From: Neorhizobium sp.
GTDB lineage: Bacteria; Pseudomonadota; Alphaproteobacteria; Rhizobiales; Rhizobiaceae
Reading direction: 5' to 3'
DNA length: 64,000 nucleotides
NCBI GenBank assembly: GCA_028283725.1
Contig: JAPWKC010000004.1
Span: forward strand, 1-64,000
The translations under genes and the position numbers were made by a program. The notes beneath the pieces are model-generated. The model was not told the origin of the DNA and did not search any database. It saw nothing but the letters and a program-made list of their open reading frames with translations. This document shows positions 1 through 5,623 of the stretch, one piece after another. Positions within the stretch are counted from its first letter, which is position 1. Every line of letters begins with the position of its first letter.

Positions 1-1188
1 AAGCTCCAGGCGAAGGGCGAAGAGGACAAGACGGACAAGATCAAGCAGATCGAGGACGTCATGAACGCGCTCAACGTCATGGGCGCGTTTCAGGAATGCG
101 CCGAGCATGACGGCTTCTTCGGCCGCGGCCATCTCTACATCGACCTCGGCTCGCCCGAGGATGAGGACGAGCTGAAGACCCCGATCGGCAATGGCCGAAA
201 TTCCGCCAGCAAGGCGAAGGTGAAAAAATGGGTGCTCCCGCTGGCCCGGCTTGGAACGGTCGAGCCTATGTGGTGTTACCCGCAGGGATATAACACGACT
301 AACCCATTATCGCCGCATTGGTATAAGCCGTCACATTGGTATGTGATGGGCAAACAGGTTCACACCTCCCGTCTCCTTACGTTTGTTGGGCGCGAGGTGC
401 CGGACATGCTCAAGCCGTCGTATTCCTTCGGCGGCCTGTCCATGACGCAGATCGCGCGGCCCTATGTGGAGAACTGGCTTCAGACCCGGCAGGCCGTGGC
501 GAACATAGTCACGAAGTTTTCGACCAACGTCCTGAAAACGGATCTGGCGCTGAAGGCTTCGGCCGGTGGAAATGACACGTCCCTGTTCAACCGGGTCGAG
601 CTGTTCAACATCTTCAAGACCAACGACGGGCTTCTGCTGGTCGACAAGGAAACGGAAGACTTCGAGAACGTCTCGGCGCCTCTGTCCGGTCTCGATGCCC
701 TGCAGGCTCAATCGCAGGAACAAATGGCATCGGTGTCCGGCATCCCGATTGTTGTGTTGCTCGGCATCCAGCCCGCCGGCCTCAACGCCTCGTCTCAGGG
801 CGAGATCGAGACCTACCATAAATGGATCCACTCCAACCAGGAGCGGATCTTCCGGCCAAACCTCGAAAAGGTCATCGACTTCATCCAGCTCTCCGAATTC
901 GGCGAGGTCGATCCCGATATCGTCTTCAAGTTCGAGCTACTCGGCGAGTTGACGGAGAAGGAGGTCGCGGAGGTCCAGAACATCCGGGCCCAGACCGATG
1001 TCATCTATACCGAGAATGGCATCCTCAGCGAGGAAGAGGTCCGAAAGCGCATCGCCAATGACGAAGACAGCCCATATCAGGGCATCGACGTCGAGGACGT
1101 GCCAGACCCGCCACCGCCGGAGGATACTGAAGGCGACGATGATCACCAGCCAGTGACGCAAGGTGAAGTAAAGGTTGACGCAGCGTGA
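1..1188 (+). CDS. Phage portal protein (DUF1073 / Acb1-like N-terminal family), 5' end cut by window
   Basis: Forms the dodecameric portal at the capsid vertex through which DNA is packaged and to which the neck attaches. The frame is open from base 1, so the ATG at 61 is an internal methionine and the true start lies upstream. The visible part carries the middle and C-terminal half of the DUF1073 portal family (residues such as PSHWYVMGKQVHTSRLLTF and GIPIVVLLG) and ends in an acidic, Pro-rich tail. Pfam names this family after Acb1 because many members carry an anti-CBASS domain at their C-terminus; here that domain is absent from the portal and appears in the gene at 2199. The stop overlaps the next start (GTGA), which suggests translational coupling. 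Confidence 0.85.
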   Translation, partial: KLQAKGEEDKTDKIKQIEDVMNALNVMGAFQECAEHDGFFGRGHLYIDLGSPEDEDELKTPIGNGRNSASKAKVKKWVLPLARLGTVEPMWCYPQGYNTTNPLSPHWYKPSHWYVMGKQVHTSRLLTFVGREVPDMLKPSYSFGGLSMTQIARPYVENWLQTRQAVANIVTKFSTNVLKTDLALKASAGGNDTSLFNRVELFNIFKTNDGLLLVDKETEDFENVSAPLSGLDALQAQSQEQMASVSGIPIVVLLGIQPAGLNASSQGEIETYHKWIHSNQERIFRPNLEKVIDFIQLSEFGEVDPDIVFKFELLGELTEKEVAEVQNIRAQTDVIYTENGILSEEEVRKRIANDEDSPYQGIDVEDVPDPPPPEDTEGDDDHQPVTQGEVKVDAA

Positions 1189-1964
1189 CCCAGTTCGTGC
1201 GGATCGGCTCGACGCCTTACATGGCCTTCGATAAGGGCGGATCTGAAAAGTCCGCCTTCCTCCGGGCTCGCAAGGCGGAAGTCCAGTACGGCCGGCAGCT
1301 TCGCAAGGTCGCGCAGCACGTCGGTGACATCGTCCGAGGCCTCTACAATCCGACCGAAGCGACGGTCACAAGTGCCATCGAGCAAGCCCTGACCCGGTAT
1401 AGCTCGACCATTGAGGCTTGGGCCCAATCGGTCGGCAACCGCATGGTGACGGAGGTCGCGGCCCGTGATCGCAAGGCGTGGATGGAAGTCTCGCGCCGGA
1501 TGGGGCAGAGCCTTCGGGAAGAGATCGACAACGCCCCAACCGGTCTCGTCCTTCGGGAACGGCTCGCGGATCAGGTCACGTTGATCAAGTCCATTCCGCT
1601 CGATGCAGCGGAGCGAGTGCATAAGCTGGCGCTGGAAGGGATCACCCAAGGCCGCCGGTCGAACTACATCGCCGAGGAGATCATGCGGTCTGGCCATGTT
1701 TCCCGGTCCAAAGCCGACCTGATCGCCAGAACTGAAGTCAGCCGCACCGCTTCATTGCTGACCGAGGCGAGGGCGGTCCACATCGGCTCGACCGGTTACA
1801 TCTGGCGAACCGCGAAGGATACCGATGTTCGACACTCGCACGCTGAGATGGAAGGCAAGTTTGTGCCCTGGGGTTCGCCCCCAACACTTGATGGGATGCG
1901 CGGCCACGCCGGGCAGTTCCCGCGGTGCAGATGCTACCCAGAGCCGGTCATTCCTCTCGACTGA
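1185..1964 (+). CDS. Phage head morphogenesis / minor head protein (Mu gpF, SPP1 gp7 type)
   Basis: A 259-residue minor capsid protein expected to act in procapsid assembly next to the portal. The C-terminal half matches the phage head-morphogenesis domain: a helical region with an R-T-E-V-S-R motif, then W-R-T-A-x-D-x-D-V-R-x-S-H and a terminal F-P-R-C-R-C-Y-P motif typical of this family. The start is GTG at 1185, overlapping the portal stop by four bases. Its position directly after the portal is the usual order. The alternative name (gp7-like) is the same family. Confidence 0.85.
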   Translation: MTQFVRIGSTPYMAFDKGGSEKSAFLRARKAEVQYGRQLRKVAQHVGDIVRGLYNPTEATVTSAIEQALTRYSSTIEAWAQSVGNRMVTEVAARDRKAWMEVSRRMGQSLREEIDNAPTGLVLRERLADQVTLIKSIPLDAAERVHKLALEGITQGRRSNYIAEEIMRSGHVSRSKADLIARTEVSRTASLLTEARAVHIGSTGYIWRTAKDTDVRHSHAEMEGKFVPWGSPPTLDGMRGHAGQFPRCRCYPEPVIPLD

Positions 1965-2198: not shown

Positions 2199-4058
2199 AT
2201 GGCCGATGAAACCGGCCTGCGAACGCTATACGTCAATCGCCCGCTGCTCAATAGCGATGAGGTGATTGCGTGGGCGAAGGCGCAGGGCTTTGCCAAAACG
2301 CTCTCCGGTGACGACCTGCACGTCACCATCGCCTTCAGCAAGGCGCCGGTGGATTGGGCCAAAGCCAAGCCCCGCGAGAATGAGGTAACGGTCGCCGGCG
2401 GCCCGCGCTCCATCGATGCGCTCGGCAAGGCAAAGGATGCCATCGTTCTCCGCTTCGAAAGCGACCGCCTCGATGAGCGCCACGAGCAGTTCGGCGATAT
2501 CGGCGCATCCTGGGACTGGCCGGAATACAAGCCGCATCTGACGATCTCCTATGAGCCGGGCGATATCGATCTCGCCTCGATCGAGCCGTTCGCCGGCGAT
2601 CTCGTCTTCGGTCCCGAGCGTTTTGCAGAGGTCGATGAGGACTGGAAGGAAAAGGCCACGTCCGCGATGGACGAACTCGCCATGGACTGGCACGGCACGA
2701 TCGGGCTGCGCACCGGCGAAACAGAGCGCACCATCATCGCCTTCGACCGCGCATCGGTTCGCCGATACGACACCGACGGTCGGCTGCACCTCGAAACGTC
2801 CAACATCAGCAAGGCCAACGTCTGCCCCTACATGGGCCGCGAGATCCCGAACTGGGAAGATCTCGGGCTCAGTGCCGACCGGACCTATCAGCTCTACCGC
2901 GATCCTGACGAACTGAAGAAGGGCGCGGCGAGCTTCAACAACCTGCCGATCCTCTCACGTCACGTACCGGTGACAGCGGCGGACCATAAGCCTGGCCTCG
3001 TGATCGGCTCGACCGGTTCTCATGCCGACTTCGACGGCACCTATCTGACTAACAGTCTAGTTTTCTGGGCCGCTGATGCGATCAGCGACATCGAGGATGA
3101 GACCAAAAAGGAATTGTCGAGCGGATATCGATACCGCGCCGACATGACGCCTGGCGAGGTGGACGGCGTCCGCTTCGACGGACGAATGACCAACATCGTG
3201 GGCAATCACGTCGCCCTCGTTGAAACAGGCCGTGCGGGGACTGACGTCGTCGTCGGCGATTCTAAGCCAAACCAGGAGATTATCATGGCTAAGACCGTGC
3301 TGACGCGGAAGGCGGCTTTGGTGCATGGAGCGCTTCTTGCTTCCGTGACCCCACTGCTTGCCCAGGACGCGAAAGTGGACCTGAATTCCGTTCTGGCCGG
3401 TGTGACGGCCAAGAACTTCAAGCAGAAGAAATCCGGCATCGCCGACGCGTTCAAGGGCAAGCTCGCTCAGGACGCCGACATCGATGACGTCGTGGAACTG
3501 CTCGACAAGCTCGAAGCGATCGAGCCGGCCGAGATCATCGAGGAAGCCACCGGCGCCTCGGGCAGTGAAGAGGTTGCCGAAGACGATACCGACGATGCCA
3601 TGGCCTACCTCAAGGGCAAGCTCTCGGAAGAAGACTTCGCCAAGTTCTGCGAGCTTCAGTCGGCCGGCGGTGCTGCCGATGAAGGCGATGACGACGACGA
3701 CAAGAAGGACAAAGACATGGTCACGAAGCCGGCCATGGATGCCGCGATCGCGGATGCCGTCCGCAAGGCGACCTCCAACACGATGAAGACCCAGCAGGCG
3801 ATCCGCGAGGCCGAGCGCTTCGTCCGTCCGTGGGTCGGCGAACTCGCCATGGCTCACGACAGTGCCGAAGGCGTCTACCGCACCGCTCTCTCGACGCTCG
3901 GCGTCAGCGCCGAAGGCATCCATGCCGATGCGCTGCGCCCGATCCTCGAAGCCCAGCAGAAGCCGGGCGAAGTCAAGAAGGTGATCCCGATCGCTCAGGA
4001 TGCCGCCGGCGCCAAGGCCTATGCCGAGCGCTTCCCCCACGCCAATCGCCTGAAATAA
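2199..4058 (+). CDS. Fused Acb1-like 2H phosphoesterase + DUF2213 prohead protease + scaffold
   Basis: A 619-residue protein with three parts. Residues about 1-150 form a 2H phosphoesterase with the two signature motifs H41-V-T43 and H113-L-T115, in an arrangement (RTLYV near the start, ASWDWPEYKPHLTIS at the second motif) that I recognise as the Acb1 anti-CBASS family, which degrades cyclic oligonucleotide alarms. Residues about 165-360 are a DUF2213 prohead-protease-like domain, with H255 (SRHVPV) and the Ser pair S307/S308 in KELSSGYRY as probable catalytic residues. The rest (363-619) is acidic and helical, as expected of a scaffold. The ATG at 2199 has AGGACGA upstream. Its place between minor head protein and capsid fits a maturation protease. 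The fusion is read directly; anti-CBASS activity is inferred. Confidence 0.8.
   Translation: MADETGLRTLYVNRPLLNSDEVIAWAKAQGFAKTLSGDDLHVTIAFSKAPVDWAKAKPRENEVTVAGGPRSIDALGKAKDAIVLRFESDRLDERHEQFGDIGASWDWPEYKPHLTISYEPGDIDLASIEPFAGDLVFGPERFAEVDEDWKEKATSAMDELAMDWHGTIGLRTGETERTIIAFDRASVRRYDTDGRLHLETSNISKANVCPYMGREIPNWEDLGLSADRTYQLYRDPDELKKGAASFNNLPILSRHVPVTAADHKPGLVIGSTGSHADFDGTYLTNSLVFWAADAISDIEDETKKELSSGYRYRADMTPGEVDGVRFDGRMTNIVGNHVALVETGRAGTDVVVGDSKPNQEIIMAKTVLTRKAALVHGALLASVTPLLAQDAKVDLNSVLAGVTAKNFKQKKSGIADAFKGKLAQDADIDDVVELLDKLEAIEPAEIIEEATGASGSEEVAEDDTDDAMAYLKGKLSEEDFAKFCELQSAGGAADEGDDDDDKKDKDMVTKPAMDAAIADAVRKATSNTMKTQQAIREAERFVRPWVGELAMAHDSAEGVYRTALSTLGVSAEGIHADALRPILEAQQKPGEVKKVIPIAQDAAGAKAYAERFPHANRLK
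3285..4058 (+). CDS. Internal-start scaffold protein nested in the protease gene
   Basis: An in-frame ATG at 3285 (codon 363 of the larger gene) is preceded by AGGAG at 3274-3278 with six bases of spacing, the best ribosome site in this stretch. The 257-residue product would contain only the C-terminal acidic, helical region with Asp/Glu runs and a Lys-rich C-terminus (ends PHANRLK). Nested protease/scaffold genes with a second in-frame start are well known (lambda C/Nu3). No expression evidence is available, so the separate product is inferred. Confidence 0.55.
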   Translation: MAKTVLTRKAALVHGALLASVTPLLAQDAKVDLNSVLAGVTAKNFKQKKSGIADAFKGKLAQDADIDDVVELLDKLEAIEPAEIIEEATGASGSEEVAEDDTDDAMAYLKGKLSEEDFAKFCELQSAGGAADEGDDDDDKKDKDMVTKPAMDAAIADAVRKATSNTMKTQQAIREAERFVRPWVGELAMAHDSAEGVYRTALSTLGVSAEGIHADALRPILEAQQKPGEVKKVIPIAQDAAGAKAYAERFPHANRLK

Positions 4059-4070
4059 GGAGGCAACGCG

Positions 4071-4571
4071 ATGCCCTTTCAGACACAGGTCCAGTTGACC
4101 CAGGCACCGGCCGTCGCTGGTGATTTCGCCAGCGCCAACCCGCGCCACTCCGTTCTGTCGGTTCCGGGCGGCTTCATCGCCGGCACCAACGGCCTGACCA
4201 TCGGCCTCTTCGCATGGGCCGACACCGCAACCGGTACGATCCTGTCGAACACAGGCACCGGCGCGCCGACCGGCTTCGTCCATCGTGACCTTCAGGCTCT
4301 CATCACCACGTACCTTGCCGAGTTCGGGATGACCATTCCGGCTGGCTTCGGTATCGGCGAGCTGTTCAACGGCGGCGACTTCTGGGTGAAGAACGCCGGC
4401 GCATCGGCGGTCACGATCGGCCAGAAGGCCTTCGCCAACAACACGAACGGCACGGTGAGCTTCGCGGCTGCCGGCGCCACCGTTGCTGGATCAACGGAAA
4501 CCAAATGGATCGCCATGTCGGCAGGTGCTGCCGGCGAACTCATCAAAATGTCCAACGTCGCCCTGGGCTAA
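4071..4571 (+). CDS. Small structural protein, probable capsid decoration/cement protein
   Basis: A 166-residue protein with AAGGAGG before its ATG, sitting directly between the protease/scaffold and the major capsid gene, the usual place of a head decoration or cement protein. The sequence is Gly/Ala/Thr rich and beta-prone (GFIAGTNGLTIGLFAWAD, EFGMTIPAGFGIGELFNGG), as in decoration proteins. No catalytic motif is seen. The role rests on context and composition. Confidence 0.6.
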   Translation: MPFQTQVQLTQAPAVAGDFASANPRHSVLSVPGGFIAGTNGLTIGLFAWADTATGTILSNTGTGAPTGFVHRDLQALITTYLAEFGMTIPAGFGIGELFNGGDFWVKNAGASAVTIGQKAFANNTNGTVSFAAAGATVAGSTETKWIAMSAGAAGELIKMSNVALG

Positions 4572-4582
4572 AGGAGAGCGAA

Positions 4583-5623
4583 ATGAAGCGTAATGTTGAT
4601 CTTGCCCGGCTCGAACGAGACTGGGGCATCATCTCGATGGCCATGGATTTCATGCCATCGGAATACAAGCGGGACTTCGATCTCGCCATGGATGCGCAGC
4701 CTGCGTTGGTGACGACGCCGAGCGGCGGCATCCCGGCATGGTTGACGTCCTACGTCGACCCGGAAGTGATCCATATCCTGCAGGCCCCGAATGCCGGCGC
4801 GGATATCCTCGGCGAGCGCAAGGAAGGCGACTGGACCACCCAGACCGCATTCTTCCAGGTCGTCGAGAACACCGGTGAAGTTTCCAGCTACGGCGACTTC
4901 AACACCAACGGTCGTTCGGACGCCAACACCACCTGGCCGCAGCGCCAGTCCTACCTCTTCCAGACCGTCATCGAATATGGCGATCTGCAGGTCGATCGCG
5001 CCGGCGCGGCTCGTCTGAACTGGGTCTCCGAACTTCAGACCTCCGCGGCTGCCACGCTCGACAAGTTCCAGGACTACTCCTACCACTTCGGTGTTTCCGG
5101 CCTCCAGAACTACGGCATGCTGAATGATCCGTCGCTCTCGGCCGCTCTCACCCCGGCTACCAAGGCCGCCGGTGGCGTGAAGTGGATCAACAACAACGCC
5201 CCGGTGGCCACGGCCAACGAGGTGTATGCCGACGTTCAGGCCCTCTTCGGTCTGCTGGTGGCCCAGACTGCCGGCCGCGTGAAGACGAAGGATGCGATGA
5301 CGCTCGCCATGGCTCCGGGTTCGGAAGTCGCGCTGACCGTCACCAACTCCTTCGGCGTCTCGGTGGAGGATCTTCTGAAGAAGAACTTCCCGAACCTGAC
5401 GGTGAAGACCTCGTACCGGTACGCCACGGCCTCCGGCAACGTCGTCCAGCTCGTCGCCGACAAGTTCGACGGCAAGGACACCGGCTTCTGCGCCTTCAAC
5501 GAAAAGATGCGTGATCATCAGGTGGTCCGCGCGCTCTCGTCGTACCAGCAGAAGAAGACCTCCGGCACCTGGGGCGCGGTGATCCGCTACCCGGTCGCAG
5601 TCACCCAGATGCTCGGCGTCTGA
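4583..5623 (+). CDS. Major capsid protein (DUF2184 family)
   Basis: 346 residues forming the phage head shell. I chose the ATG at 4583 because AAAGGAGAG precedes it at the right distance; an upstream in-frame methionine at 4505 lies inside the preceding gene. The protein shows the DUF2184 pattern: N-terminal ARLERDWG, then GIPAWLTSYVDPEVIHIL, then the GDLQVDRAG region and a C-terminus ending in an RYPVAVTQMLGV-like strand. Length and position after protease/scaffold and decoration genes agree with the family. Confidence 0.85.
   Translation: MKRNVDLARLERDWGIISMAMDFMPSEYKRDFDLAMDAQPALVTTPSGGIPAWLTSYVDPEVIHILQAPNAGADILGERKEGDWTTQTAFFQVVENTGEVSSYGDFNTNGRSDANTTWPQRQSYLFQTVIEYGDLQVDRAGAARLNWVSELQTSAAATLDKFQDYSYHFGVSGLQNYGMLNDPSLSAALTPATKAAGGVKWINNNAPVATANEVYADVQALFGLLVAQTAGRVKTKDAMTLAMAPGSEVALTVTNSFGVSVEDLLKKNFPNLTVKTSYRYATASGNVVQLVADKFDGKDTGFCAFNEKMRDHQVVRALSSYQQKKTSGTWGAVIRYPVAVTQMLGV

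Follow-up and report, generated by a model that had tools for sequence, protein, structure and literature searches.

A predicted Acb1-type enzyme is fused to a putative DUF2213 head protease in a head gene cluster of Neorhizobium

Phage enzymes of the 2H fold have been described on structural proteins of the phage head, and here we report a variant of this arrangement: in the first 64,000 nucleotides (hereafter the window) of a Neorhizobium sp. contig (JAPWKC010000004.1), one gene joins a predicted Acb1-type enzyme to a DUF2213 head maturation protease. In the passages that deal with these domains, Iyer et al. (2017, PMC5512222) described 2H domains on MuF or portal proteins and took an RNase role to fit, with the breakdown of defence nucleotides as their alternative, and a 2022 survey (PMC9503650) regarded 2H domains on MuF and portal proteins as cargo that is probably packaged and then injected to counteract nucleotide signalling, including SMODS. 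That survey also described Nudix domains fused to MuF, portal and a capsid-processing serine peptidase. The 2H passages of both papers name MuF and portal as partners and no head peptidase. The window protein likewise carries a 2H enzyme on a head protein, but its partner is a protease, and it follows the same idea as the Nudix–peptidase fusions with another enzyme and another likely substrate; as far as these passages go, Acb1 on a protease is a variant of what is known already. Our literature search, which went by title and abstract opening (supplements and most subscription papers lay outside it), gave no report of Acb1 on a head protease.

The gene is one open frame on the plus strand, from the ATG at 2199 to the stop at 4056-4058, and encodes 619 residues in the order Acb1 domain, linker, DUF2213 head protease and scaffold-like C-terminal tail:

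2199..4058, plus strand: fused gene, 619 residues (Acb1, linker, DUF2213 and C-terminal scaffold-like region)
2220..2654, plus strand: Acb1 domain, residues 8-152 (PF23474; 7t26 by sequence, model compared with 7t27)
2319..2327, plus strand: first HxT motif, H41-V42-T43, aligned with T4 H44/T46
2535..2543, plus strand: second HxT motif, H113-L114-T115, aligned with T4 H113/T115
2655..2759, plus strand: Acb1/DUF2213 join, containing in-frame M157 (2667) and M162 (2682)
2760..3263, plus strand: DUF2213 head maturation protease domain, residues 188-355 (PF09979; model compared with T4 gp21)
2961..2963, plus strand: H255, candidate catalytic residue of the protease, invariant in 56 sequences
3117..3119, plus strand: S307, candidate nucleophile of the protease, invariant in 56 sequences
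3207..3209, plus strand: H337, candidate catalytic residue of the protease, invariant in 56 sequences
3264..4055, plus strand: C-terminal region, presumably scaffold-like by its position (phrog_2229 spans residues 178-619)

M157 and M162 could be old starts of the protease. The gene lies inside a head gene cluster, with a MuF gene before it and cement and major capsid genes after it, and it is thus a putative effector fused to a head protein in a head gene cluster, the pattern of a polyvalent or packaged phage effector.

The initial annotation had placed H41-x-T43 and H113-x-T115 in a 2H fold close to Acb1, and the frame, coordinates and motifs proved exact. The first 164 residues matched PF23474 in Pfam with E 1.3e-42 and 145.4 bits (cut-off 27), and the sequence of the Acb1 part matched FBB1 Acb1 (7t26) with E 2.1e-12. 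An AlphaFold2 model of this part, built on 16 sequences (mean predicted local distance difference test score, pLDDT, 90.4), has FBB1 Acb1 (7t27) as its best solved match, with a VIA Z of 17.4 and a root-mean-square deviation of 1.9 Å over 136 aligned residues; Foldseek gave E 2.7e-9 for 7t26. The next matches in VIA were a Burkholderia phage BCSR5 phosphodiesterase (Z 13.8), which the PDB also holds as Acb1, and then LigT proteins (Z ~10.5); the Pam3 portal (8hds) was outside the 50 matches listed by each of the two fold searches. With the same 164 residues alone, LigT (PF02834) stayed just below its Pfam cut-off (22.9 against 23.3 bits), which the relative in viral contig L002 does exceed (30.3 bits). 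The Pfam scores and fold matches together rule out an ordinary LigT or RNA ligase as the family. The fused protein had no match in PADLOC or NCBIfam, and a pattern search of genome contigs with the Acb1 part gave 46 stretches that fit the pattern, none of them a relative.

By sequence alignment, window Y11, H41, T43, W107, H113, T115 and W149 correspond to T4 Y12, H44, T46, F107, H113, T115 and W147, so that the HxT/HxT catalytic set is predicted to be intact. The domain thus shares with the Acb1 proteins of T4 (57B) and FBB1 the 2H fold, both HxT motifs, Y12, an aromatic residue at 107 and the lid W147, but T4 Acb1 is a separate protein whereas that of the window forms the N-terminus of a head protease, and two T4 base-contact residues are replaced, W74 by D73 and E141 by A143, the latter paired by counting back from the lid tryptophan. 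Base recognition by the window enzyme, and with it the signal that would be cut, may therefore differ. Among 78 Acb1 domains from our own loci (T4 numbering), H44, T46 and H113 are kept in all; position 115 is T in 72 and S in 6, position 12 is Y in 75 and F in the other 3, and W147 is present in 70, E141 in 32 and W74 in 0. Compared with its relative in L002, the Acb1 part has a nonsynonymous rate (Ka) of 0.20 and a synonymous rate (Ks) of 1.49, the latter near saturation, and by this comparison it looks to be under purifying selection. An Acb1-type enzyme is very likely the correct prediction.

The second half of the fusion, which the same annotation had called a DUF2213 prohead protease, is borne out by Pfam, by PHROG, by fold and by a conserved triad. 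PF09979 matched residues 188-355 of the whole protein with E 1.3e-47, and the PHROG head maturation protease family phrog_2229 matched residues 178-619 with E 1.3e-129. The AlphaFold2 model of DUF2213 (56 sequences, pLDDT 91.2) has the T4 capsid protease gp21 (5jbl) as its best VIA match, with Z 10.6 and 2.8 Å over 130 aligned residues, followed by herpesvirus proteases with Z up to 8.5; Foldseek was weak here, its sole match below 0.001 being the Epstein–Barr virus protease (E 9.9e-4), with gp21 at E 0.034. H255, S307 and H337 are invariant in 56 of 56 DUF2213 sequences and form a candidate triad; a His-Ser-His triad is the assemblin pattern. Because of the fold match and the conserved triad, DUF2213 is very likely a head protease. 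Its profile matched one PDB sequence, the scaffolding protein gp24 of phage Pa193 (9b40, E 7e-26). The window protein shares with Pa193 gp24 and Pam3 gp5 the DUF2213 domain and the position before the cement and capsid genes, but an Acb1 domain is absent from those of Pam3, PB1 and Pa193 among the DUF2213 proteins.

To see how often Acb1 is joined to head proteins, we collected 126 Acb1 open reading frames (ORFs), distinct by sequence, from scans of viral contigs; three of these scans took the best 80 loci each, retaining the nearest relatives, and the counts are therefore not natural frequencies. Partners were assigned by our own profiles and Pfam, most portals by our own profile alone. A recognised head domain was present in 108 of the 126 ORFs: a portal in 100 (92 PF06381-like, 3 PF04860-like, 3 Mu-like and 2 portal with MuF), MuF in 2 and a head protease in 6. 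One further ORF had ADP-ribosyltransferases as partner (L251), three were long with no assigned partner (L009, L037, L219; that of L219 had no PDB sequence match), and 14 were short separate genes. It had been stated beforehand that Acb1 is usually free or attached to a portal, and the 92 PF06381-like portals agree with this. In such portal-Acb1 proteins (the Pam3 portal 8hds, psageK9, RHph_I36) the domain is 36-55% identical to that of the window and likewise encoded in a head cluster, but it sits C-terminal to the portal. In one very long frame (L037 624-6386, 1921 residues) an oxidoreductase-like region and Acb1 were seen.

The six protease fusions comprise Acb1 with DUF2213 in L002, L215 and L226, with Peptidase_S78 in L210 and L229, and with Peptidase_S78_2 in L003; including the window, Acb1 is N-terminal to the protease in 7 of 7. 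A jumbo-phage survey (PMC7824862) deemed, in the part concerned, the XkdF peptidase unrelated to other prohead peptidases. Since Acb1 and DUF2213 recur in one frame in three independent viral contigs, the fusion is not an assembly artefact, and a chance frame or frameshift is ruled out likewise, the frame being open and both domains being far above their cut-offs. The expectation that other phages would carry the fusion thus held for viral contigs and failed for named records: 0 of the 415 phage and 0 of the 49 plasmid records that match the protein, some of which were inspected individually, cover at least 80% of the 619 residues at one place. The Roseobacter phage DSS3P8 gene called 'prohead protease' and two Rhizobium rhizogenes plasmid genes called phage prohead protease or protein have the length of Acb1 alone and were rejected as fusions. 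Apart from these counts, L033 (1345-3003; genome G414) carries a diverged 2H domain (HxT, HxS) on a distant DUF2213; it lies under the PF23474 cut-off and was excluded from the Acb1 counts, and it appears to be a further 2H–protease join, with 2H in the place of Acb1.

Among host genomes, PF23474 gave matches in 5 of 100 relatives, 5 of 57 genomes of the genus, 8 of 397 of the order, 5 of 385 of the class and 4 of 398 of the phylum, of which 5, 5, 6, 2 and 2, respectively, were over the cut-off; these sets overlap, and the window's own genome is counted in each. None of 14 control genomes matched. Three same-genus genomes have portal-Acb1, and a fourth (G049) has a stop within the match. By our own profiles, no other above-cut-off Acb1 of the host genomes sits on DUF2213.

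We then compared what else stands in front of DUF2213. Among 66 distinct DUF2213 cores (80 loci), 13 have an open frame of at least 150 residues before the domain, measured from stop to stop, so that some may be chance frames. By eye, L185 and perhaps others look like chance frames. Ten of these extensions were scanned by Pfam: four contain NUDIX (L124, L149, L172, L200; possibly the peptidase fusions meant in PMC9503650) and six no family, and L180 has a NUDIX box by pattern. A peptide of ~35 residues (PVSEKQRRAM...GHSTLGIP..VGKEFV) precedes DUF2213 in nine ORFs (L002, L124, L135, L146, L148, L149, L150, L172, L180) and is also found in L215, whether or not a recognised enzyme lies between the two, and the portal of L193 ends in it. 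Its order is peptide, Acb1, DUF2213 in L002 and L215 and peptide, NUDIX, DUF2213 in L124, L149, L172 and L180: this is one slot in which the enzyme is exchanged. The peptide possibly serves head targeting; it is absent from the window protein. A stretch with KYPVK and LLLAAAREARMHG-like motifs was also noticed before DUF2213 in L127, L129, L146, L149, L173 and L180; in L127, L129, L146 and L173, where it stands without NUDIX, it had no Pfam match. The slot, which holds Acb1, NUDIX and domains of no known family, is worth searching for counter-defence enzymes that have yet to be discovered. Other effector-like enzymes were found in head-protein slots as well, namely PBECR3 after portal-Acb1 in L091 and an inorganic pyrophosphatase on the PB1 portal, and ADP-ribosyltransferase occurs together with Acb1 in L008, L047 and L251. 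Single proteins in L008, L047, L251 and L091 join Acb1 with ADP-ribosyltransferase, NUDIX or PBECR3 nuclease domains, and those of L008, L047 and L091 additionally contain portal or MuF parts.

We examined the history of the joins with a tree built from 78 Acb1 domains; its bootstrap values had not yet stabilised. This tree replaced a quick one of 98 rows, which dropped L015, L016, L022, L031, L032 and L118. Left out of it were repeats (L036, L208, L209, L249), rows that were distant or odd (L013-L016, L018, L023, L031-L033, T4 Acb1 as L035, L118, L259-L265), two diverged portal-Acb1 rows (L162, L188), near-identical rows and matches that were short. The tree splits into sides of 24 and 54 rows at 100/99 support. 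On the 54-row side are 48 PF06381-like portals, 5 other portals and one free gene; 48 of the 51 PF06381-like rows are thus on the side opposite to the window. All protease joins (4 DUF2213, both S78 and the S78_2) fall on the 24-row side, together with L219, 2 MuF, 2 labelled as ADP-ribosyltransferase (the label of L009 having been given by eye, not by Pfam), 5 free genes, 6 portals (one with MuF) and 1 other. The approximately unbiased (AU) test speaks against one common origin for the seven protease-joined domains (p 0.0205), a result to be weighed lightly as it was tested after the tree had been seen; a single origin of the four Acb1-DUF2213 fusions is not rejected (p 0.054). Independent joins in the window and L002 were considered and dropped: the DUF2213 tree does not reject a sister relation of the two (AU p 0.70; a better tree had escaped the unconstrained quick search), and one join may account for both. 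Their Acb1 domains are 75% identical, as against 44% for DUF2213, 58% for the portal and 50% for the capsid protein. Since the Acb1–protease join recurs with three head protease families, head building and host disarming may be linked.

What the fusion does can be read in several ways, and our tentative preference, held at somewhat less than even confidence, is a bifunctional head protein whose Acb1 part is packaged and delivered by virions. The N-terminal domain would be a metal-independent cyclic oligonucleotide phosphodiesterase of the Acb1 type, the middle a head maturation protease and the tail scaffold-like. As the procapsid is where protease and scaffold act, Acb1 copies would be made with the assembling head and are likely carried into it; there Acb1 would stay tethered or be trimmed off, and some of it might be retained in the virion, enter the next cell with the DNA and remove signals of the cyclic oligonucleotide-based antiphage signalling system (CBASS) before phage gene expression. 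The analogy with Pa193 bears on the packaging step: its gp24, a DUF2213 protein, was detected in mature virions by liquid chromatography–mass spectrometry, and its residues 286-326 were modelled inside the capsid under the five-fold vertices, according to the parts of the preprint concerned (PMC11042391). The EMSGE quoted for gp24 sits at 301-305 of the 478-residue DUF2213 protein in NC_050148. The presence of gp24 in virions gives the virion idea partial support, but the modelled stretch belongs to its C-terminal part, behind DUF2213. The other effector-like enzymes in head-protein slots (NUDIX, PBECR3, pyrophosphatase, ADP-ribosyltransferase) support packaging and delivery as well, as does the prediction of the 2022 survey for 2H on MuF and portal proteins. 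The two predicted folds, the complete HxT/HxT set, the recurrent placing of Acb1 ahead of a protease and the head domain in 108 of 126 ORFs also favour this reading.

Several points weigh against this reading. Maturation often removes the scaffold and the protease, and portals remain in the particle, so that portal-tethered Acb1 would need release for delivery. We identified no cleavage site for the release of Acb1, and found no virion proteomics for the window phage or any phage with an Acb1–protease fusion. The replaced W74 and E141 and the 14 short separate Acb1 genes count on the same side. In the passages at hand, the Pa193 authors could not decide if gp24 undergoes cleavage and did not observe a protein of this kind in the related phage E217 (PMC11042391), Iyer et al. 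put the RNase role first, and T4 Acb1 activity appears from ~15 min post infection, matching the late onset of CBASS (PMC9117128), so that early delivery is not obviously needed. As a whole, the initial annotation, which had the enzyme built in with the head, cut off during maturation and placed inside procapsids or virions, is partly supported. If the enzyme is active, the fusion is counter-defence built into capsid assembly, not added as a separate gene, and its recurrence on three protease families makes virion carriage and the benefit of tethering testable with few constructs.

Another explanation, which we regard as possible but rather unlikely, needs no virion delivery: some CBASS cyclases would sense the head protease late in infection, and the fused Acb1 would sit 1:1 on the alarm molecule in the producer cell. 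One review describes a phage prohead protease interacting with a CBASS sensor (PMC12409349) and another states that prohead protease mutations can subvert CBASS (PMC12072042), in the parts concerned; the interaction suggests that the join may tie the CBASS antidote to its trigger, and makes the protease a fitting partner for Acb1. On this account phages would have repeatedly joined antidote to trigger, on at least three head protease families, so that the trigger is never shown without the antidote. It fits with the three Pfam protease families joined to Acb1, with the disfavoured single origin (again post hoc) and with the late action of T4 Acb1, as well as with SMODS cyclase-like matches within the genus (12 of 57 genomes, 10 of them above the cut-off), the portal-Acb1 carriers G010 and G020 among them. 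SMODS alone is not a CBASS operon, however; the search also matched 3 of the 14 control genomes, of which 2 exceed the cut-off and two are archaea, and it gave no match in the window's own genome (78% complete). Moreover, most Acb1 ORFs found sit on portals rather than proteases, a DUF2213 protease need not be a CBASS trigger, NUDIX occupies the same slot as general cargo would, and the target signal of Acb1 is diffusible, so that tethering need not help.

A slightly less probable account is an accident of position, in which the gap between portal and protease genes takes cargo genes and Acb1 becomes joined to one or the other once a stop codon is lost. Acb1 would then simply act late and in the cytosol, and free protease would still arise from an internal start or by proteolysis. 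In the listed rows Acb1 indeed lies behind the portal domain and ahead of the protease domain, as gene order predicts; the portal-Acb1 of L206 stops 11 bases short of DUF2213, short separate Acb1 genes adjoin head genes in L042 and L096, and an in-frame methionine lies near the protease's own start in 5 of 7 fusions (window, L002, L003, L210, L229). However, L215 and L226 have links of ~10-12 residues with no methionine in the join (ATG only; GTG and TTG were not weighed), and the use of this slot by NUDIX, which in four ORFs follows the peptide seen in L002 and L215, looks like selection for cargo.

Improbable, finally, is a 2H enzyme that acts on something other than CBASS signals, for example on RNA ends, 2'-5' oligoadenylate or a derivative of ADP-ribose. 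In its favour the D73 and A143 replacements, weak Pfam matches to LigT and 2'-5' RNA ligase, the NUDIX and ADP-ribosyltransferase cargo that may handle NAD-type molecules, and the RNase role weighed by Iyer et al. for 2H on MuF and portal proteins could be cited, but Acb1 leads the Pfam families by ~38 orders of magnitude and the fold matches with Z 17.4, as opposed to ~10.5 for LigT, Y12, the HxT pairs, the aromatic residue at 107 and the lid W147 are retained, and nine further Acb1 proteins, not named in the passage concerned nor stated there to be head-borne or not, all cleave 3'3'-cGAMP and cAAA (Hobbs et al. 2022, PMC9117128).

The genes around the fusion are as follows:

1..1188, plus strand: portal (PF06381 by Pfam), 5' end cut by the contig end, lacking an Acb1 domain
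1185..1964, plus strand: MuF-like minor head protein (PF04233, E 4e-16)
4071..4571, plus strand: cement or minor capsid protein (PF23982, E 1e-34)
4583..5623, plus strand: major capsid protein (phrog_264, E 1e-65), start picked by eye, frame open from 4505

Pfam found no Acb1 domain in the portal gene as far as the contig end leaves it. The contig is 2.04 Mb long and the window makes up its first 64 kb, so that the cluster probably belongs to a prophage in the chromosome. A minus-strand frame of 73 residues (1948-2169), without a PHROG match, occupies the gap between the MuF gene and the fused gene and has coding-like G+C by codon position. Free Acb1 genes were also seen on Rhizobium rhizogenes plasmids (L204 5001-5438, L205 2021-2437), in K84 near repA/repB, and the name 'phage prohead protease/protein' given to such genes is an apparent misnomer.

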